Source of the DNA: Megasphaera micronuciformis F0359
Lineage (GTDB): Bacteria; Bacillota; Negativicutes; Veillonellales; Megasphaeraceae
Length of the DNA stretch: 64,000 nt
Assembly (NCBI RefSeq): GCF_000165735.1
Contig: NZ_GL538208.1
Span: forward strand, 75,879-139,878
Direction of reading: 5' to 3'
The notes under the pieces: generated by a model
Databases searched by the model: none
The model's input: the letters and a program-made list of their open reading frames with translations, nothing else
Told to the model about the DNA's origin: nothing
Position numbers and translations under genes: made by a program
Shown here: piece after piece, positions 9,100 through 59,964 of the stretch
Layout: each line of letters opens with the position of its first letter
Numbering within the stretch: the stretch's first letter is position 1

Positions 9100-10476
9100 A
9101 TGAATCATATGACAAAAATGCAATTATCGGCAGTATTGGCCGTCTTTGCCGTAGCAGCATCCTGTCCGGCACAAGGGGCAGATACACCCATCGTATCGAG
9201 CGGTGGTGCAGCTTATAATATCGGCTTACAAGGCGCCTCTTTTACGAACTCGGATAATGTATACCTGGGCGGTCAGACCGGTGCTGCAAACAGCAATCCT
9301 TACGCACATACGGGGGACCCAAATGCAAGGGGAAATAATATTGCCGTAGGGCGATTGTCGTTAAACGGGTCGAATGGTGGCGGTAACGTAGCTCTGGGTG
9401 CTAAGGCCTTTGTAGAAGGTAAGGGCGATTATAATTTTTTGGGAAATTTCGCCGCAGGGTTTAAGTCTACCCTGTCCGATACGATTGCTATCGGTTCTTT
9501 TGCGGGAGCTAATGCTACCGGGAATAAAAATGTATGGCTCGGTGCCGGTCAGGCCGGCGGGAGTACGGGAAATAATACGGTATTAATCGGATCGAATTCT
9601 AATGTAACCGGTAACTTTAACTACGGTATGGGCCATGGAATTATACTGAACGGGGATGATAATGCCGCTGTCGGTGCTTATAATAAGATAGAGGGAAATC
9701 GTTCAGGCGCCTTCGGGGTAGGTACTTATAATGTGTCTACCGTTGCGGGAGACGATTCATACAGTGTAGGTAATAATAATCGTGTCAGTGCGAATAATAC
9801 CTTTGTCGTAGGGAATAACGTAACGACATCTCTGGAAAACGGGGTCGTCTTGGGCAACAATTCGACAGCTGAAAGTAGTGATGTAGTCGGCACTCCCGAC
9901 TATACCTACAGTGACGGGACTACGGTCAGCTATGCCGGTAAAGTGCCTGTTTCCACTGTTTCCGTAGGGGCTTCGGGACAAGAGCGCACGATTACGCATG
10001 TAGCGGCAGGTCGTGTCAGTGAAAATTCTACGGATGCTGTCAACGGGTCTCAACTCTACGGGGCTAATCGGCAAATAGATAATTTGTATAGCCATATTGC
10101 CGGTCTCGGGAAAGAAGCCGATAAAGGATCCGCGAGAGCTGCGGCGTTGGCTGCATTGCATCCCTTACAGTTCGACCCGGACAATAGACTTCAGGTGATG
10201 GGCGGCTATGGACATTACAAAAATGCCAATGCACTGGCATTGGGAATAGGGTATTATAAGAGAGAAAACCTGCTTTTTACAGCCGGAGCTACCTTTAGTG
10301 AACATATTATGGCCAATATCGGCGTATCCTATAAATTGGGAGAAGAAAATACATCACAAAAAATTTCGCCCGCATCATATAATGCACTTGAACAACGGGT
10401 AGATATATTGGAAGCACAAAATAAGCAACTTCAGGAAACTGTCGCTATGCTTGTTAAAAAGATGAATGAGAAGTAG
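9100..10476 (+). CDS. Trimeric autotransporter adhesin, YadA type, with C-terminal coiled coil
   Basis: A 458-residue surface adhesin. The signal peptide ends near residue 26. Residues ~75-260 form a left-handed beta-roll head with repeats such as NIAVG, NVALG, TIAIG, NTVLIG, NAAVG and TFVVG. A neck/HANS-like motif follows (RTITHVAAGRVSENSTDAVNGSQLY, ~296-320), then a short stalk (321-343) and the YadA membrane anchor (~345-413; AALAALHPLQFDPDNRLQVM, LALGIGYY). YadA proteins normally end at the last barrel strand. This one continues for ~45 residues with a clear heptad coiled coil (427-457). It has its own promoter and terminator and is small for the family. Confidence 0.93.
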   Translation: MNHMTKMQLSAVLAVFAVAASCPAQGADTPIVSSGGAAYNIGLQGASFTNSDNVYLGGQTGAANSNPYAHTGDPNARGNNIAVGRLSLNGSNGGGNVALGAKAFVEGKGDYNFLGNFAAGFKSTLSDTIAIGSFAGANATGNKNVWLGAGQAGGSTGNNTVLIGSNSNVTGNFNYGMGHGIILNGDDNAAVGAYNKIEGNRSGAFGVGTYNVSTVAGDDSYSVGNNNRVSANNTFVVGNNVTTSLENGVVLGNNSTAESSDVVGTPDYTYSDGTTVSYAGKVPVSTVSVGASGQERTITHVAAGRVSENSTDAVNGSQLYGANRQIDNLYSHIAGLGKEADKGSARAAALAALHPLQFDPDNRLQVMGGYGHYKNANALALGIGYYKRENLLFTAGATFSEHIMANIGVSYKLGEENTSQKISPASYNALEQRVDILEAQNKQLQETVAMLVKKMNEK

Positions 10477-56724: not shown

Positions 56725-57984
56725 ATGAAAAGATTTTACTCCTTACTTGCCGCTTTGTGCATGCTTATGTCCCTGCCGGTTGCAGCTTCAGCGGCAGATG
56801 CAGATAATGTAAAGTCGGAAAAAATACCTGTTCGCCTTTTAAGTGATGTAGATGTGAAAGAGTCAAAAACTACAAAGGCAGAGCAGGAAAAGGAAACAAA
56901 TTACAAAGTAAAGGCCTTGGAAGACGCTTTAAAAAACGGAGATTTACCGGTATATGAAACAAGACCGTATGAGAAGGCCACTTTGCCGGAAGGAATAGAA
57001 GCGGTTCCGCTGAGTCCTTTGAAAGACGGCGCGTTTGCTGTCGGCAAGCTGCATAAGGGAACCGGTCTTGAAGAAGTATTGAAAATATACGGTTATCCGC
57101 AAAAGAGAACGGAAACGACGCATTTATTGAAGCTGACTTATGAAAAAGAAGACTTGGCTATGCGCGTTATCTTGAGAAAGCCTGTGGCACCGGCTTTAAA
57201 AGAAAACAATATTGATAAAAATCGTATACAAACAGGTGTAGAGTCTGTATATTTAACGAAGGGCGACTCCGTTATTATAGGTGATGATTTGACAATCGGA
57301 ACACCTGTGGAAATTCTGATTCGCCGCTTCGGTCGTCCCGACCGGTTGTTGCGAGACACGGATGCCAATGTATATTATTTTGTGTACTCTTCTCTGTCCG
57401 AATGGGAAGATTTAGTTTTTGCCGTCGGTGACAGGAAGATTCGTCGTGTTGCCATGATGCCTGCAAGGCCTCCGTATACGGTGCGGCAAAAAGGTGTAAA
57501 CGTCGGTACGGGCTTAACTAAAGAAGATTTTACGCTCATGGGCTTTCAGCCGGGAAGTAATTTTTCGCGAGATAAATATAATATGTGGCAGACCGTTATT
57601 AAAAGAGGGAAGACCGAATTTTGGCTCTATGGTGATTACGGAGTGGAATCGGACGGAATCGGTAAGGTGCAGCAAGTATTTCTTCTTTCCAACTCGGCGT
57701 ATACGAGCAGAGGCATTACCTTAGGCTATCATGTATCGACCTTATTGGCTGCCTATGGAGTACCGAATCGCATTATTGCCGGTCCTGACGGCGAGGATTC
57801 TGTAGATGCATACTACTATGACAGTCCCTATGACAGAGAGACATCTCTGGTATTTACGGTGCAGCATGAGAAGCATTATATAAATGATATAATTCTTACG
57901 AATAAGCCTATTAAGGACATTCAGGATTCGCTGGGAAGATACGGATTGAAAGAAAGAAAGGCTATCGCAAAAGAATATACCTAA
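56725..57984 (+). CDS. Secreted protein with three BamE/SmpA-like repeats, function unknown
   Basis: A 419-residue protein with a signal peptide (cut near ASAAD) and a charged region to ~residue 70. Three segments share the G-x(n)-L/I-x-x-(Y/F)-G-x-P pattern of BamE-like domains: 107-127 (GKLHKGTGLEEVLKIYGYP), 187-206 (DDLTIGTPVEILIRRFGRP) and 329-348 (RGITLGYHVSTLLAAYGVP). Each precedes a beta-rich stretch. It has no lipobox, unlike BamE. The role is unknown; assembly or folding in the envelope is speculative. GAAAAGGAG precedes the ATG. Confidence 0.75.
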   Translation: MKRFYSLLAALCMLMSLPVAASAADADNVKSEKIPVRLLSDVDVKESKTTKAEQEKETNYKVKALEDALKNGDLPVYETRPYEKATLPEGIEAVPLSPLKDGAFAVGKLHKGTGLEEVLKIYGYPQKRTETTHLLKLTYEKEDLAMRVILRKPVAPALKENNIDKNRIQTGVESVYLTKGDSVIIGDDLTIGTPVEILIRRFGRPDRLLRDTDANVYYFVYSSLSEWEDLVFAVGDRKIRRVAMMPARPPYTVRQKGVNVGTGLTKEDFTLMGFQPGSNFSRDKYNMWQTVIKRGKTEFWLYGDYGVESDGIGKVQQVFLLSNSAYTSRGITLGYHVSTLLAAYGVPNRIIAGPDGEDSVDAYYYDSPYDRETSLVFTVQHEKHYINDIILTNKPIKDIQDSLGRYGLKERKAIAKEYT

Positions 57985-57988
57985 GGTC

Positions 57989-58018
57989 TTTACTTGAAGA
58001 GATACAATCAAGTATAAT
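57989..58018 (+). promoter_or_regulatory. Promoter of the BrxF-like gene with inverted repeat
   Basis: TTTACT (57989-57994), 18 bases, TATAAT (58013-58018). An inverted repeat ACTTGA (57992-57997) / TCAAGT (58008-58013) lies over the spacer and could be a repressor site. Confidence 0.6.
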
Positions 58019-58055
58019 GAAACCAATCAAATACTAGCAAACGAAGGTGATTTTC

Positions 58056-58520
58056 ATGGTTACAGATGCAGAAGTCTTAAAGCGGTGGAAGTACATTGCA
58101 CAGGAAGATGAAAAGTTGCTGATTCTCATCGGCGGCCCCGGTTCCGGTAAAAGCCGGATTATTCGAGATTTAACTTATCAGGAAGGATGGAAGGTCTGCG
58201 AAGCCCGAGAGTTGTTTGATGACGAATTCTTGGAAATTCCCCGTGCTGATCGTCCGGAAAAGGCCATTGACCTTATTGCCAACGCTATCAGGCGGTTAAA
58301 TGCTCGCGTTGTCATGATTGATAATGTCGGCTTCCTCTTTGCACCTATTCTGAATTTAAATCCCGTTGCAATGCTCAAAGAACTGAGCCGCGAATGCCCG
58401 ATTATTGTAAGTTGGAGAGGTAAGCTCGAAGGCAATACACTCTACTTTGAACACAACGGCGATCCTAAATATGCAAAATTTATTGTAGAAAATCCTAATC
58501 ATGTTATTTCACTTGACTGA
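58056..58520 (+). CDS. BrxF-like P-loop protein without a BREX system
   Basis: A 154-residue P-loop NTPase: Walker A GGPGSGKS at 26-33, Walker B VVMIDN at 85-90, then FLFAPILNLNPVAMLKELSRE and IIVSWRGKLEGNTLYF near the C-terminus. This arrangement closely matches BrxF, the small P-loop protein of type 3 BREX phage-defence systems. No brxC, pglX, pglZ, brxA or helicase is nearby; the next gene is uppP. It has its own promoter and terminator. It could be a housekeeping relative of BrxF or a leftover. The assignment rests on motif pattern, not a search. Confidence 0.7.
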   Translation: MVTDAEVLKRWKYIAQEDEKLLILIGGPGSGKSRIIRDLTYQEGWKVCEARELFDDEFLEIPRADRPEKAIDLIANAIRRLNARVVMIDNVGFLFAPILNLNPVAMLKELSRECPIIVSWRGKLEGNTLYFEHNGDPKYAKFIVENPNHVISLD

Positions 58521-58528
58521 CATATAAA

Positions 58529-58558
58529 AGCAATGCCCTCGGGCGTTGCTTTTTTTTT
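58529..58558 (+). terminator. Terminator after the BrxF-like gene
   Basis: Stem of about 8-10 bp with one G-U (GCAATGCC/GGCGTTGC, 58531-58550) and a run of T. Confidence 0.88.
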
Positions 58559-58618: not shown

Positions 58619-59443
58619 ATGAGCGATTATATGATAGCCGTCATACTCGGCATTGTCGAAGGGTTTACGGAATTCCTGCCCGTTTCTTCTACGGGGCACA
58701 TGATACTCGTCGGTGATTGGCTTGGTTTTGACGGTCCCAGAGCGAGCGTTTTTGAAGTTTTTATCCAATTAGGTGCGATTTTATCGGTTCTTTTCATTTA
58801 TAAAGAAAAGTTCATTTACATGTTGCAGCAGTATAAATGCGTGCATCTTTTGAAGAGAGAAAATTGGTTTCGACGTGATACGGGATTGACGTTGGCACAT
58901 GTTGCCGTCGGCATTGTACCGGTCATGCTTGTCGGATTTTTTGCACACCATGCTATCAAGACCTACCTCTTTTCTCCCTTTACGGTTATTATAGGCCTTA
59001 TTGTCGGTGGTCTCTTTATGTTGGCTGCTGAACGAGCAAGGATACCCGTAGTTTGTGATGATGTGGAAAAACTGACAATTGTACAGGCCTTTTTAGTAGG
59101 TGCTTTTCAAATGTTGGCTCTTTGGCCGGGATTTTCTCGCTCCGGCTCAACATTGGGGGGAGGCCTCCTGTTGGGTATCAGTCGGAAAGCTGCGGCCGAT
59201 TATTCCTTTATTATTGCCGTTCCCGTTATGATTGTCGCTTGCTTTTATGATTTATTAAAAAGTCTGTCTTATTTAGGCGGTAGTGACTTGGCCATGATCG
59301 CCATCGGTTTTGTAACGGCCTTCGTCGTCGCTTATATTTCCGTCCTTTGGTTCTTAAAATTTCTCAATAAATCTACTTTGGCTTCCTTTGCATACTATCG
59401 CTTTGTAGTAGCAGTCGTTGCCTTTATCCATTTTATTTTGTAA
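58619..59443 (+). CDS. uppP: Undecaprenyl-diphosphate phosphatase
   Basis: A 274-residue membrane enzyme (BacA family) that recycles undecaprenyl pyrophosphate for peptidoglycan and LPS precursors; it also gives bacitracin tolerance. It has the motifs GIVEGFTEFLPVSSTGHMIL (N-terminal) and LWPGFSRSGSTLGGGLLLG. About eight helices. TAAGGAG precedes the ATG. Confidence 0.97.
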   Translation: MSDYMIAVILGIVEGFTEFLPVSSTGHMILVGDWLGFDGPRASVFEVFIQLGAILSVLFIYKEKFIYMLQQYKCVHLLKRENWFRRDTGLTLAHVAVGIVPVMLVGFFAHHAIKTYLFSPFTVIIGLIVGGLFMLAAERARIPVVCDDVEKLTIVQAFLVGAFQMLALWPGFSRSGSTLGGGLLLGISRKAAADYSFIIAVPVMIVACFYDLLKSLSYLGGSDLAMIAIGFVTAFVVAYISVLWFLKFLNKSTLASFAYYRFVVAVVAFIHFIL

Positions 59444-59493: not shown

Positions 59494-59964
59494 TTAGGCA
59501 TGGCCACCTGAGAGGGAATAAAAATCATGCATGATATTTTGTATAAATGACTGGGGATTGGCTGAATCAGGCAAGTCGCGAACGATACTTTGCAGTAAGT
59601 TGGTAAACATCAAGTTAATACCTTGAGAATAGACCAGATAATAATACGTGACCTCTTCAGGAGCCCCGATAATAAGCGGTGCCAGTTGGTCGTTACTGGT
59701 AAAGGCAAGGTCGTAAAAAGAGAGGATATCTTCTTTAAACCGGCCTAAGTCCAATTTGTGAGAAGCATAATCTTCAGAAAAGGCGATGCCTATTTGAGCC
59801 AGACGTTCGGGGATTTCACTCAAACTGTCCGGAGCCTCTAATTCATGGTCTTCCATAACATGAATGAGTGTGTGCAAAGCTCCCGTGACGGATTCACAAA
59901 AGAAGTTAAAAGTAAACAGGCCTTCCGAACCTGTCGGATTTTCGTATATGTATGATTCTGACAT
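59494..59964 (-). CDS. Hypothetical protein
   Basis: Not recognised. The 156-residue protein is predicted soluble and acidic, mostly helical (FNFFCESVTGALHTLIHVMEDH, YYLVYSQGINLMFTNLLQSIVRDL). It contains two histidines close together (HTLIHVMEDHE) and an aromatic cluster EEVTYYYLVYSQG. It has no signal peptide or membrane helix. GTAGGAGG precedes the ATG. It converges on uppP and is divergent from the DUF805 gene. Confidence 0.7.
   Translation of the reverse strand: MSESYIYENPTGSEGLFTFNFFCESVTGALHTLIHVMEDHELEAPDSLSEIPERLAQIGIAFSEDYASHKLDLGRFKEDILSFYDLAFTSNDQLAPLIIGAPEEVTYYYLVYSQGINLMFTNLLQSIVRDLPDSANPQSFIQNIMHDFYSLSGGHA

Follow-up and report, generated by a model that had tools for sequence, protein, structure and literature searches.

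The locus and its local elements

The window, a stretch of 64,000 nucleotides from Megasphaera micronuciformis F0359 in which all unprefixed coordinates are counted, codes for a BrxF-like protein of 154 amino acids at 58056-58520 on the plus strand (start ATG 58056, last codon 58515-58517, stop 58518-58520). Directly upstream, on the same strand, lies a gene for a predicted secreted repeat protein of 419 amino acids (56725-57984), its signal peptide recognized by eye. Downstream, again on the plus strand, follows uppP, the gene for undecaprenyl-diphosphatase (58619-59443; Pfam BacA, E-value 1.3e-75). Rfam gave no match around the BrxF-like gene. On the minus strand, positions 59494-59964 contain a 156-residue open reading frame for which neither Pfam nor NCBIfam gave a match at an E-value of 1; homologues of it occur in relatives, and genome G005 has a tandem pair (L052:9156-9623 and 9648-10157).

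The local elements were examined in an alignment of the upstream regions of 14 loci from family f1 (L001-L007, L009 and L011-L016, with L008 and L010 absent). The alignment favors the start at ATG 58056; GTG 58047 falls inside a conserved ribosome-binding stretch (GAAGGTGAT, 58043-58051, plus strand). A sigma-70-type promoter (TTTACT, an 18-nt spacer, TATAAT; 57989-58018, plus strand) was found by both site scan and alignment, and its hexamers are kept in all 14 regions, the single exception base being the last one of the first hexamer in L016. The terminator scan placed an intrinsic terminator, a 12-bp stem with a downstream T run, at 58526-58553 on the plus strand. Alone, the site scan is weak: it returned five promoter-like sites against 1.7 in shuffled sequences and one terminator against 0.7. 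The original prediction, made from the bare sequence, had the gene sitting between a secreted protein gene and uppP with its own promoter and terminator, and all of these elements are present. It had also read regulation into an unstranded inverted repeat that overlaps the promoter (TACTTGA/TCAAGTA, 57991-58014, with 7-nt arms at 57991-57997 and 58008-58014). Since this repeat is present in just two of the 14 regions, one being that of the window itself, we judged it incidental and no evidence of regulation, and it was dropped as a candidate operator.

Assignment to the BrxF family

The window protein scores 98.1 bits (E-value 3.8e-28) with the NCBIfam model NF033453 (BREX_3_BrxF), whose cut-off is 50, and the match covers residues 7-145 of 154. 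The window protein alone was also run against PADLOC, where BrxF matched with an E-value of 1.4e-22. The sequence has a Walker A motif, GGPGSGKS, at residues 26-33 (58131-58154, plus strand; pattern Gxx[GA]xGK[ST]), a Walker B-like strand, RVVMIDN, which in the alignment ends with Asp89-Asn90 (58305-58325, plus strand), and a W120-R-G122 element that alignment and model put in a predicted beta cap (58413-58421, plus strand). The translation also contains MIDN, FAPILNLNPVAMLKELSR and SWRGKLEG. The BrxF pattern originally ascribed to this reading frame is therefore borne out: the frame is where it was said to be, the motifs named for it are there, and the BrxF profile recognizes it well above the cut-off.

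Other collections were less specific. No Pfam model exceeded its cut-off for the window protein; the best was AAA_22 (24.3 bits versus 27), and BrxB (PF08747) stayed below its gathering score (14.9 bits versus 26.8). Searched against PDB sequences, the family profile matched adenylate and shikimate kinases over the P-loop region; among the 60 matches listed, the hits centered on this region and none was full-length. PHROGs returned weak P-loop matches only, the phage collection held no match to the family, and the plasmid collection contained seven distant matches, five of them annotated as brxF.

BREX genes in the genome and in the class

The genome (1.76 Mb in 37 contigs, 98.33% complete) gave no match in profile searches for PglZ (PF08665), BrxC (NF033441), DUF6079 (PF19557) or PF10923, which agrees with the predicted lack of BREX genes. 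Within the window, no brxC (DUF6079), pglX or pglZ adjoins the BrxF-like gene, its neighbors being the secreted protein gene and uppP.

Across the class, 122 of 380 genomes have a protein above the cut-off of the BrxF model and 258 do not. Full-length DUF6079, the BrxC of BREX-3, is present in four of the 380 (G366, G303, G079 and, in two pieces, G134); any DUF6079 match at all occurs in 36 genomes, the remaining 32 being short or partial. In each of the four BREX-3 loci, brxC is closely preceded by a brxF belonging to the locus. A BREX-3 locus without one, a result named in advance as contradicting the original prediction, was thus not encountered among the four loci of the class. In G366 and G303 the BREX copy is the only one above the cut-off, and G079 and G134 hold both kinds. 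A copy that BREX-3 does not explain is found in 120 of the 122 genomes; where neighborhoods were unread, this count is based on the absence of DUF6079. In G134 the BREX-3 locus, from family f18, lies at L112:7873-12000 (contig C7), with the brxC frame in two pieces, and the other BrxF-like copy is at C7:45231-45668. In G079, the NF033453 scores of the BREX copy (105.8 bits) and of the copy next to sigH (104.0 bits) are so close that the model cannot tell the two kinds apart there; the NCBIfam BrxF model does not separate stand-alone from BREX-linked copies. Two loci from among the 32 genomes with short or partial DUF6079 matches were inspected: at L060, a BrxB gene that matches BrxB of 9zll (E-value 3.9e-32) precedes brxC, and L063 looks similar by eye, so these were taken as type I BREX. 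A separate count of 55 among 100 genomes includes G078, whose match (39% identity over 61 residues in a 275-residue frame, E-value 1e-3) is probably no member of the family.

Chromosomal position

Two gene orders recur in Negativicutes. Within the taxonomic order of the window, the BrxF-like gene stands between the secreted protein gene and uppP or secE. The secreted repeat protein gene is upstream in all 30 loci tested (L001-L030); the gap to the BrxF-like gene measures 71-153 bp in family f1 (16 loci) and 23-34 bp in family f4 (14 loci). Outside this taxonomic order, the arrangement is sigH, the BrxF-like gene, pfkA or a nudix gene, and uppP: sigH lies upstream on the same strand, at 120-1020 bp, in 28 of 29 loci (28 genomes). 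The proximity to uppP raised in the original prediction extends to these other Negativicutes as well, with uppP downstream in 27 of the 29 loci. The exceptions are L041, which begins at a contig end and is without both sigH and uppP, and L042, without a uppP match. Adding 14 loci of the P-loop pattern scan, mostly repeat genomes, brings the counts to 42 of 43 for sigH and 41 of 43 for uppP. The wider context is ispDF-gltX-cysS-mrnC-thyX-rlmB-yacP-sigH, followed by pfkA or nudix and then uppP, in some cases with tuf, secE, nusG and rplKAJ. When 20 genomes without a BrxF-like gene were checked, 17 had a sigH match; none of these 17 sigH loci showed a BrxF-like frame within up to 1.5 kb on each side, and in 10 of them a pfkA-like gene adjoins sigH. 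A broken second copy is found at L050:7391-7534 (G010:C5:57390-57533), where a BrxF-like fragment with 56% identity over residues 1-48 contains two stops; G010 belongs to the same genus as the window and also keeps an intact copy.

A strict functional pair of the BrxF-like and the secreted protein was considered and rejected, because the secreted family occurs, within the taxonomic order, in genomes without the BrxF-like gene and the neighbors are different outside this order. The secreted family is present with an E-value of 1e-46 or better in 10 of 11 family f2 genomes without a BrxF-like gene and, by partial profile matches, in all seven genomes of genera g11 and g13, which have no BrxF-like gene either; G016 is without both genes. 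The secreted repeat protein evolves fast, and in the relative L043 it has weak matches to CAP_assoc_N, DUF4309 and BamE-like models. A search for a partner among neighbors likewise yielded no candidate, as no gene is common to the lineages examined. In Negativicutes the neighbors are sigH, pfkA, nudix and uppP; in Erysipelotrichaceae, mnmM-like or trigger-factor-like genes; in family f44, PAS/hemerythrin or nrdR genes; in f136, a helicase gene; in f87, amylase genes and, in one case, a cell-wall hydrolase gene.

Copies outside the class

In the phylum sample, 47 of 299 genomes have a protein above the cut-off, three of them from the genus of the window. A brxC match adjoins the copy in 37 of the other 44 and is missing in seven (G388, G535, G559, G583, G435, G631 and G423); these counts leave aside second copies in G488 and G549. 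Beyond the phylum, the search consisted of a named-genome scan, whose pattern demands an intact P-loop, and of the plasmid and phage collections. The named-genome scan found Negativicutes such as Anaerospora, Lucifera and Veillonella, the last belonging to the same taxonomic order as the genus of the window.

For nine copies from Erysipelotrichaceae and Coprobacillaceae (L166-L174), the 4-14 kb of retrieved sequence gave no brxC match; an mnmM-like gene is convergent to the BrxF-like gene in six of the nine and a trigger-factor-like gene lies beside it in two. Like the window gene, these copies have no brxC nearby, an intact Walker A motif (for which they were selected) and recognition by NF033453, which gave 82.4 and 92.9 bits for the two that were tested. 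Unlike it, they are about 140 residues long, shorter between residues 55 and 66, have other neighbors and form a separate branch of the tree. Stand-alone genes also occur in three further Bacillota families, f44, f136 and f87 (L184, L185, L188, L190, L198 and L199), all six with an intact Walker A. A case of another sort is L197:8042-8521 (G423), a lone brxF close to the BREX type that falls among BREX rows in the tree. It lies beside an 82-residue frame with 22% identity to PglZ, has no brxC match in the 16.5 kb retrieved and is possibly a decayed BREX-3 locus.

Sequence differences between stand-alone and BREX-linked proteins

One difference concerns the ATP site. The Walker A pattern Gxx[GA]xGK[ST] is found at 68 of 69 stand-alone versus 13 of 44 BREX-linked loci; six more of the latter have Ala for the first Gly, and 25 of the 44 are without Walker A. 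Part of the sample (17 of the 69 stand-alone and one of the 44 BREX loci) had been fetched by a pattern that needs an intact P-loop, and without these loci the counts are 51 of 52 versus 12 of 43. Retention of Walker A represents few independent events, the tree offering one independent pair. The count left out 26 of the 30 loci L001-L030, as near copies, the loci L058-L095, named or short duplicates of included loci, and loci with unrelated P-loop genes only; L113 and L114 come from the same genome. Repeating it on whole stop-to-stop frames, the starts having been chosen by a script, gave the same result. The sole stand-alone copy of the 69 without a recognizable Walker A, L041:164-649 (G080), sits on a long branch.

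In the column table, which left out L182, L186 and L193, every one of the 49 stand-alone rows has the Walker B Asp89, followed by N, G, R, S, D or H and never by Glu; in BREX rows the commonest residues at this place are Asn and His. Of the features of an active AAA+ ATPase, the window protein thus has Walker A and Asp89, and the catalytic Glu is absent. Trp120 is shared by both kinds (stand-alone, 48 of 49 rows; BREX, 31 of 33). At the C-terminus they differ: BREX copies carry a stretch like LxYAxPxHPEYxxY, with its Tyr in 32 and its acid in 33 of 33 rows. The motif was found in 33 of 36 BREX rows and in none of the 49 stand-alone rows, the window included, using a pattern that was defined from the present alignment and relaxed once an initial version had matched 26 of 36 versus 0 of 49. 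Near misses among stand-alone rows lie outside Negativicutes: L197, one residue off, and L198 and L199 from family f87.

Phylogeny and selection

Copies more than 85% identical and frames shorter than 95 residues were left out of the phylogenetic analysis. In the resulting 85-row tree, the stand-alone copies of Negativicutes, together with the window, form one branch of 37 rows (support 93/89) with no BREX row inside. This branch includes L156, whose source is a metagenome-assembled genome labeled Acholeplasmataceae; its gene order is that of Negativicutes. The larger stand-alone group also takes in two long BREX rows, L165 and L193. With these two, six other long or partial rows and L197 removed, the 76-row tree needs two changes between stand-alone and BREX copies, versus a mean of 23 when labels are shuffled. 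One change suffices in 46% of 200 bootstrap trees and also in a quick tree built without the P-loop columns (support 58). L197 apart, one or two origins of the split are thus likely, in a tree that is unrooted and does not set its direction.

Comparisons of coding sequences within the genus indicate that the gene is under purifying selection. Four chosen pairs (L002-L003, L004-L005, L006-L013 and L007-L012) gave dN/dS of 0.012-0.024 at dS of 0.46-2.9, dS exceeding 1 in most comparisons. Five of nine comparisons with the window gave 0.013-0.048, values that are hardly reliable at dS above 2, and the other four were saturated.

It might be argued that the gene is what is left of a BREX-3 system, a remnant or reduced part that still serves phage defense, alone or with non-BREX partners. 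The ease with which it passes the BrxF model and a predicted fold resembling BrxB (see below) would fit, and L197 does look remnant-like. We nevertheless consider this reading unlikely. The gene holds a conserved housekeeping position and is under purifying selection in the genus, no BREX row enters the Negativicutes branch, and the phage collection held no match. Full-length BREX-3 BrxC is moreover confined to four class genomes, two of which (G079 and G134) hold both kinds. Because the family is so much more widespread than BrxC, each instance of which has its own brxF, the gene is probably not a reduced BREX system. The version of this idea put forward originally, a reduced defense component working with genes elsewhere, finds no support, given the absence of PglZ and BrxC matches in the genome and the separate brxF of the BREX-3 loci in G079 and G134. 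The opposing proposal, that BrxF derives from a housekeeping family present in Negativicutes, holds for its second half: the class has a non-BREX family, seen in the 122 versus four of 380 genomes and in the conserved position and sequence of the loci that were read. Derivation of BrxF from it does not follow from an unrooted tree in which the split needs one or two changes.

Predicted structure and comparison with known systems

An AlphaFold2 model of the window protein, based on a 27-row alignment, has a pLDDT of 92.8 and strands at residues 21-26, 46-49, 86-89, 116-125, 128-133, 136-143 and 150-152. It shows the BrxB/BrxF-type fold as characterized in PMC12839542, a five-stranded alpha/beta core with a three-stranded beta cap. 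The best Foldseek match is BrxB in 9zll (E-value 9.4e-5), and VIA-align ranks BrxB first (Z 10.4, rmsd 3.7 over 145 residues), with RFC and ORC at 9.0-9.2. In a control model of a BREX-linked BrxF (L165), built on an alignment mostly of stand-alone rows, BrxB is again at the top (Z 11.2), tied with NSF (10.9). The AAA+ fold is a firm prediction; the affinity to BrxB, about one Z unit above generic AAA+ domains in the model comparison, is suggestive.

The same structural ranking bears on the idea of an ordinary P-loop NTPase or nucleotide kinase that acts on a small molecule and is BrxF-like by fold only. Sub-threshold Pfam AAA matches such as AAA_22 and the kinases hit by the family profile over the P-loop region would be expected of such an enzyme. 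However, the BrxF model extends over nearly the whole protein, Trp120 and Gly122 are common to BREX BrxF, and the structural matches lead with BrxB and continue with AAA+ domains, which makes a small-molecule enzyme improbable.

BrxF has been described as an inactive STAND protein, ORC-Cdc6-like (PMC12839542), and as an AAA+ protein of the ORC/DnaA clade (PMC10164562); both sources treat it as the type 3 counterpart of BrxB. In type I BREX, BrxB is reported to dock ATP-dependently on the AAA+ domain of BrxC and to bridge BrxC to PglZ (PMC13326643, PMC12205998). As far as PMC12839542 goes, BrxB itself is without Walker A and Walker B. The window protein resembles BREX-3 BrxF in its near whole-length profile match, the W-x-G in the beta cap, the Walker B Asp, Arg66 and the kind of fold predicted. 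It differs in having no brxC, pglX or pglZ beside its gene, in coming from a genome that matched neither BrxC nor PglZ, in an intact Walker A that more than half of the BREX loci are without, in a chromosomal housekeeping position, and in giving no match to the Y-A-x-P-x-x-P-E-Y-like C-terminal motif. Type I BrxB (PDB 9zll) is the best solved structural match of the predicted model. Unlike BrxB as portrayed in the source cited, the window protein possesses both Walker A and the Asp of Walker B; it also stays below the Pfam BrxB cut-off and comes from a genome without PglZ or BrxC matches. A claim about an arginine finger was dropped because the numbering of BrxB R182, as given in PMC13326643, does not match the chain compared.

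A probable stand-alone, housekeeping lineage

On balance, we think that the window protein represents a stand-alone BrxF/BrxB-type, AAA+-like lineage that does not work in BREX and that has been inherited vertically within Negativicutes; this explanation as a whole seems to us a reasonably good bet. Its components are not equally strong. That the gene is a housekeeping, non-BREX one we regard as highly probable. The mechanism, a hydrolysis-poor ATP-binding adaptor, is put forward tentatively. Most likely the protein has a housekeeping role as a switch or adaptor that binds ATP, and is a paralog of BrxF, in a tree that is unrooted.

Such a protein would bind ATP and, judging from a Walker B Asp without a following Glu, hydrolyze it slowly or not at all. 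By analogy with BrxB on BrxC and PglZ, its ATP form may dock on a resident partner machine. A kept ATP site together with a missing BREX motif would fit a role other than docking on BrxC. Since no neighbor is common to the lineages examined, the protein probably works in trans, and its absence, by the cut-off, from 258 of the 380 class genomes argues against an essential role. We therefore picture a trans-acting, non-essential and often absent housekeeping regulator, which would be made from its own ordinary promoter. That it is instead a resident BrxF open to borrowing by incoming mobile BREX-3 systems we find very hard to credit: two of the 380 class genomes (G079 and G134) do have both kinds together, but every BREX-3 locus of the class brings its own brxF and the stand-alone proteins give no match to the BREX BrxF motif.

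A broader scenario, which we offer as speculation and would not ourselves count on, takes the stand-alone lineage as the starting point. Several lineages of Bacillota, namely Negativicutes, Coprobacillaceae and two or more further families, would keep a housekeeping ATP switch from which BREX-3 BrxF was recruited, many BREX copies then losing the ATP site; the housekeeping form would have as its partner some resident AAA+ or nucleic-acid machine resembling the BrxB-BrxC-PglZ core.

We found no account of a stand-alone BrxF in the literature, supplements aside, where a list of orphans (e.g. in PMC12839542) could exist, and no transposon study of Veillonella parvula. A family that the literature seen places solely within phage defense is also a conserved chromosomal gene in many Negativicutes. 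The NCBIfam BrxF model labels such genes as BREX-3 BrxF where there is no BREX-3 system, and the window protein is matched by the PADLOC BrxF models as well. This is of consequence wherever defense genes are counted one by one. For the biology of the family, the stand-alone lineage provides a way to study the origin of BREX parts and the function that a BrxB/BrxF-type switch has outside BREX.
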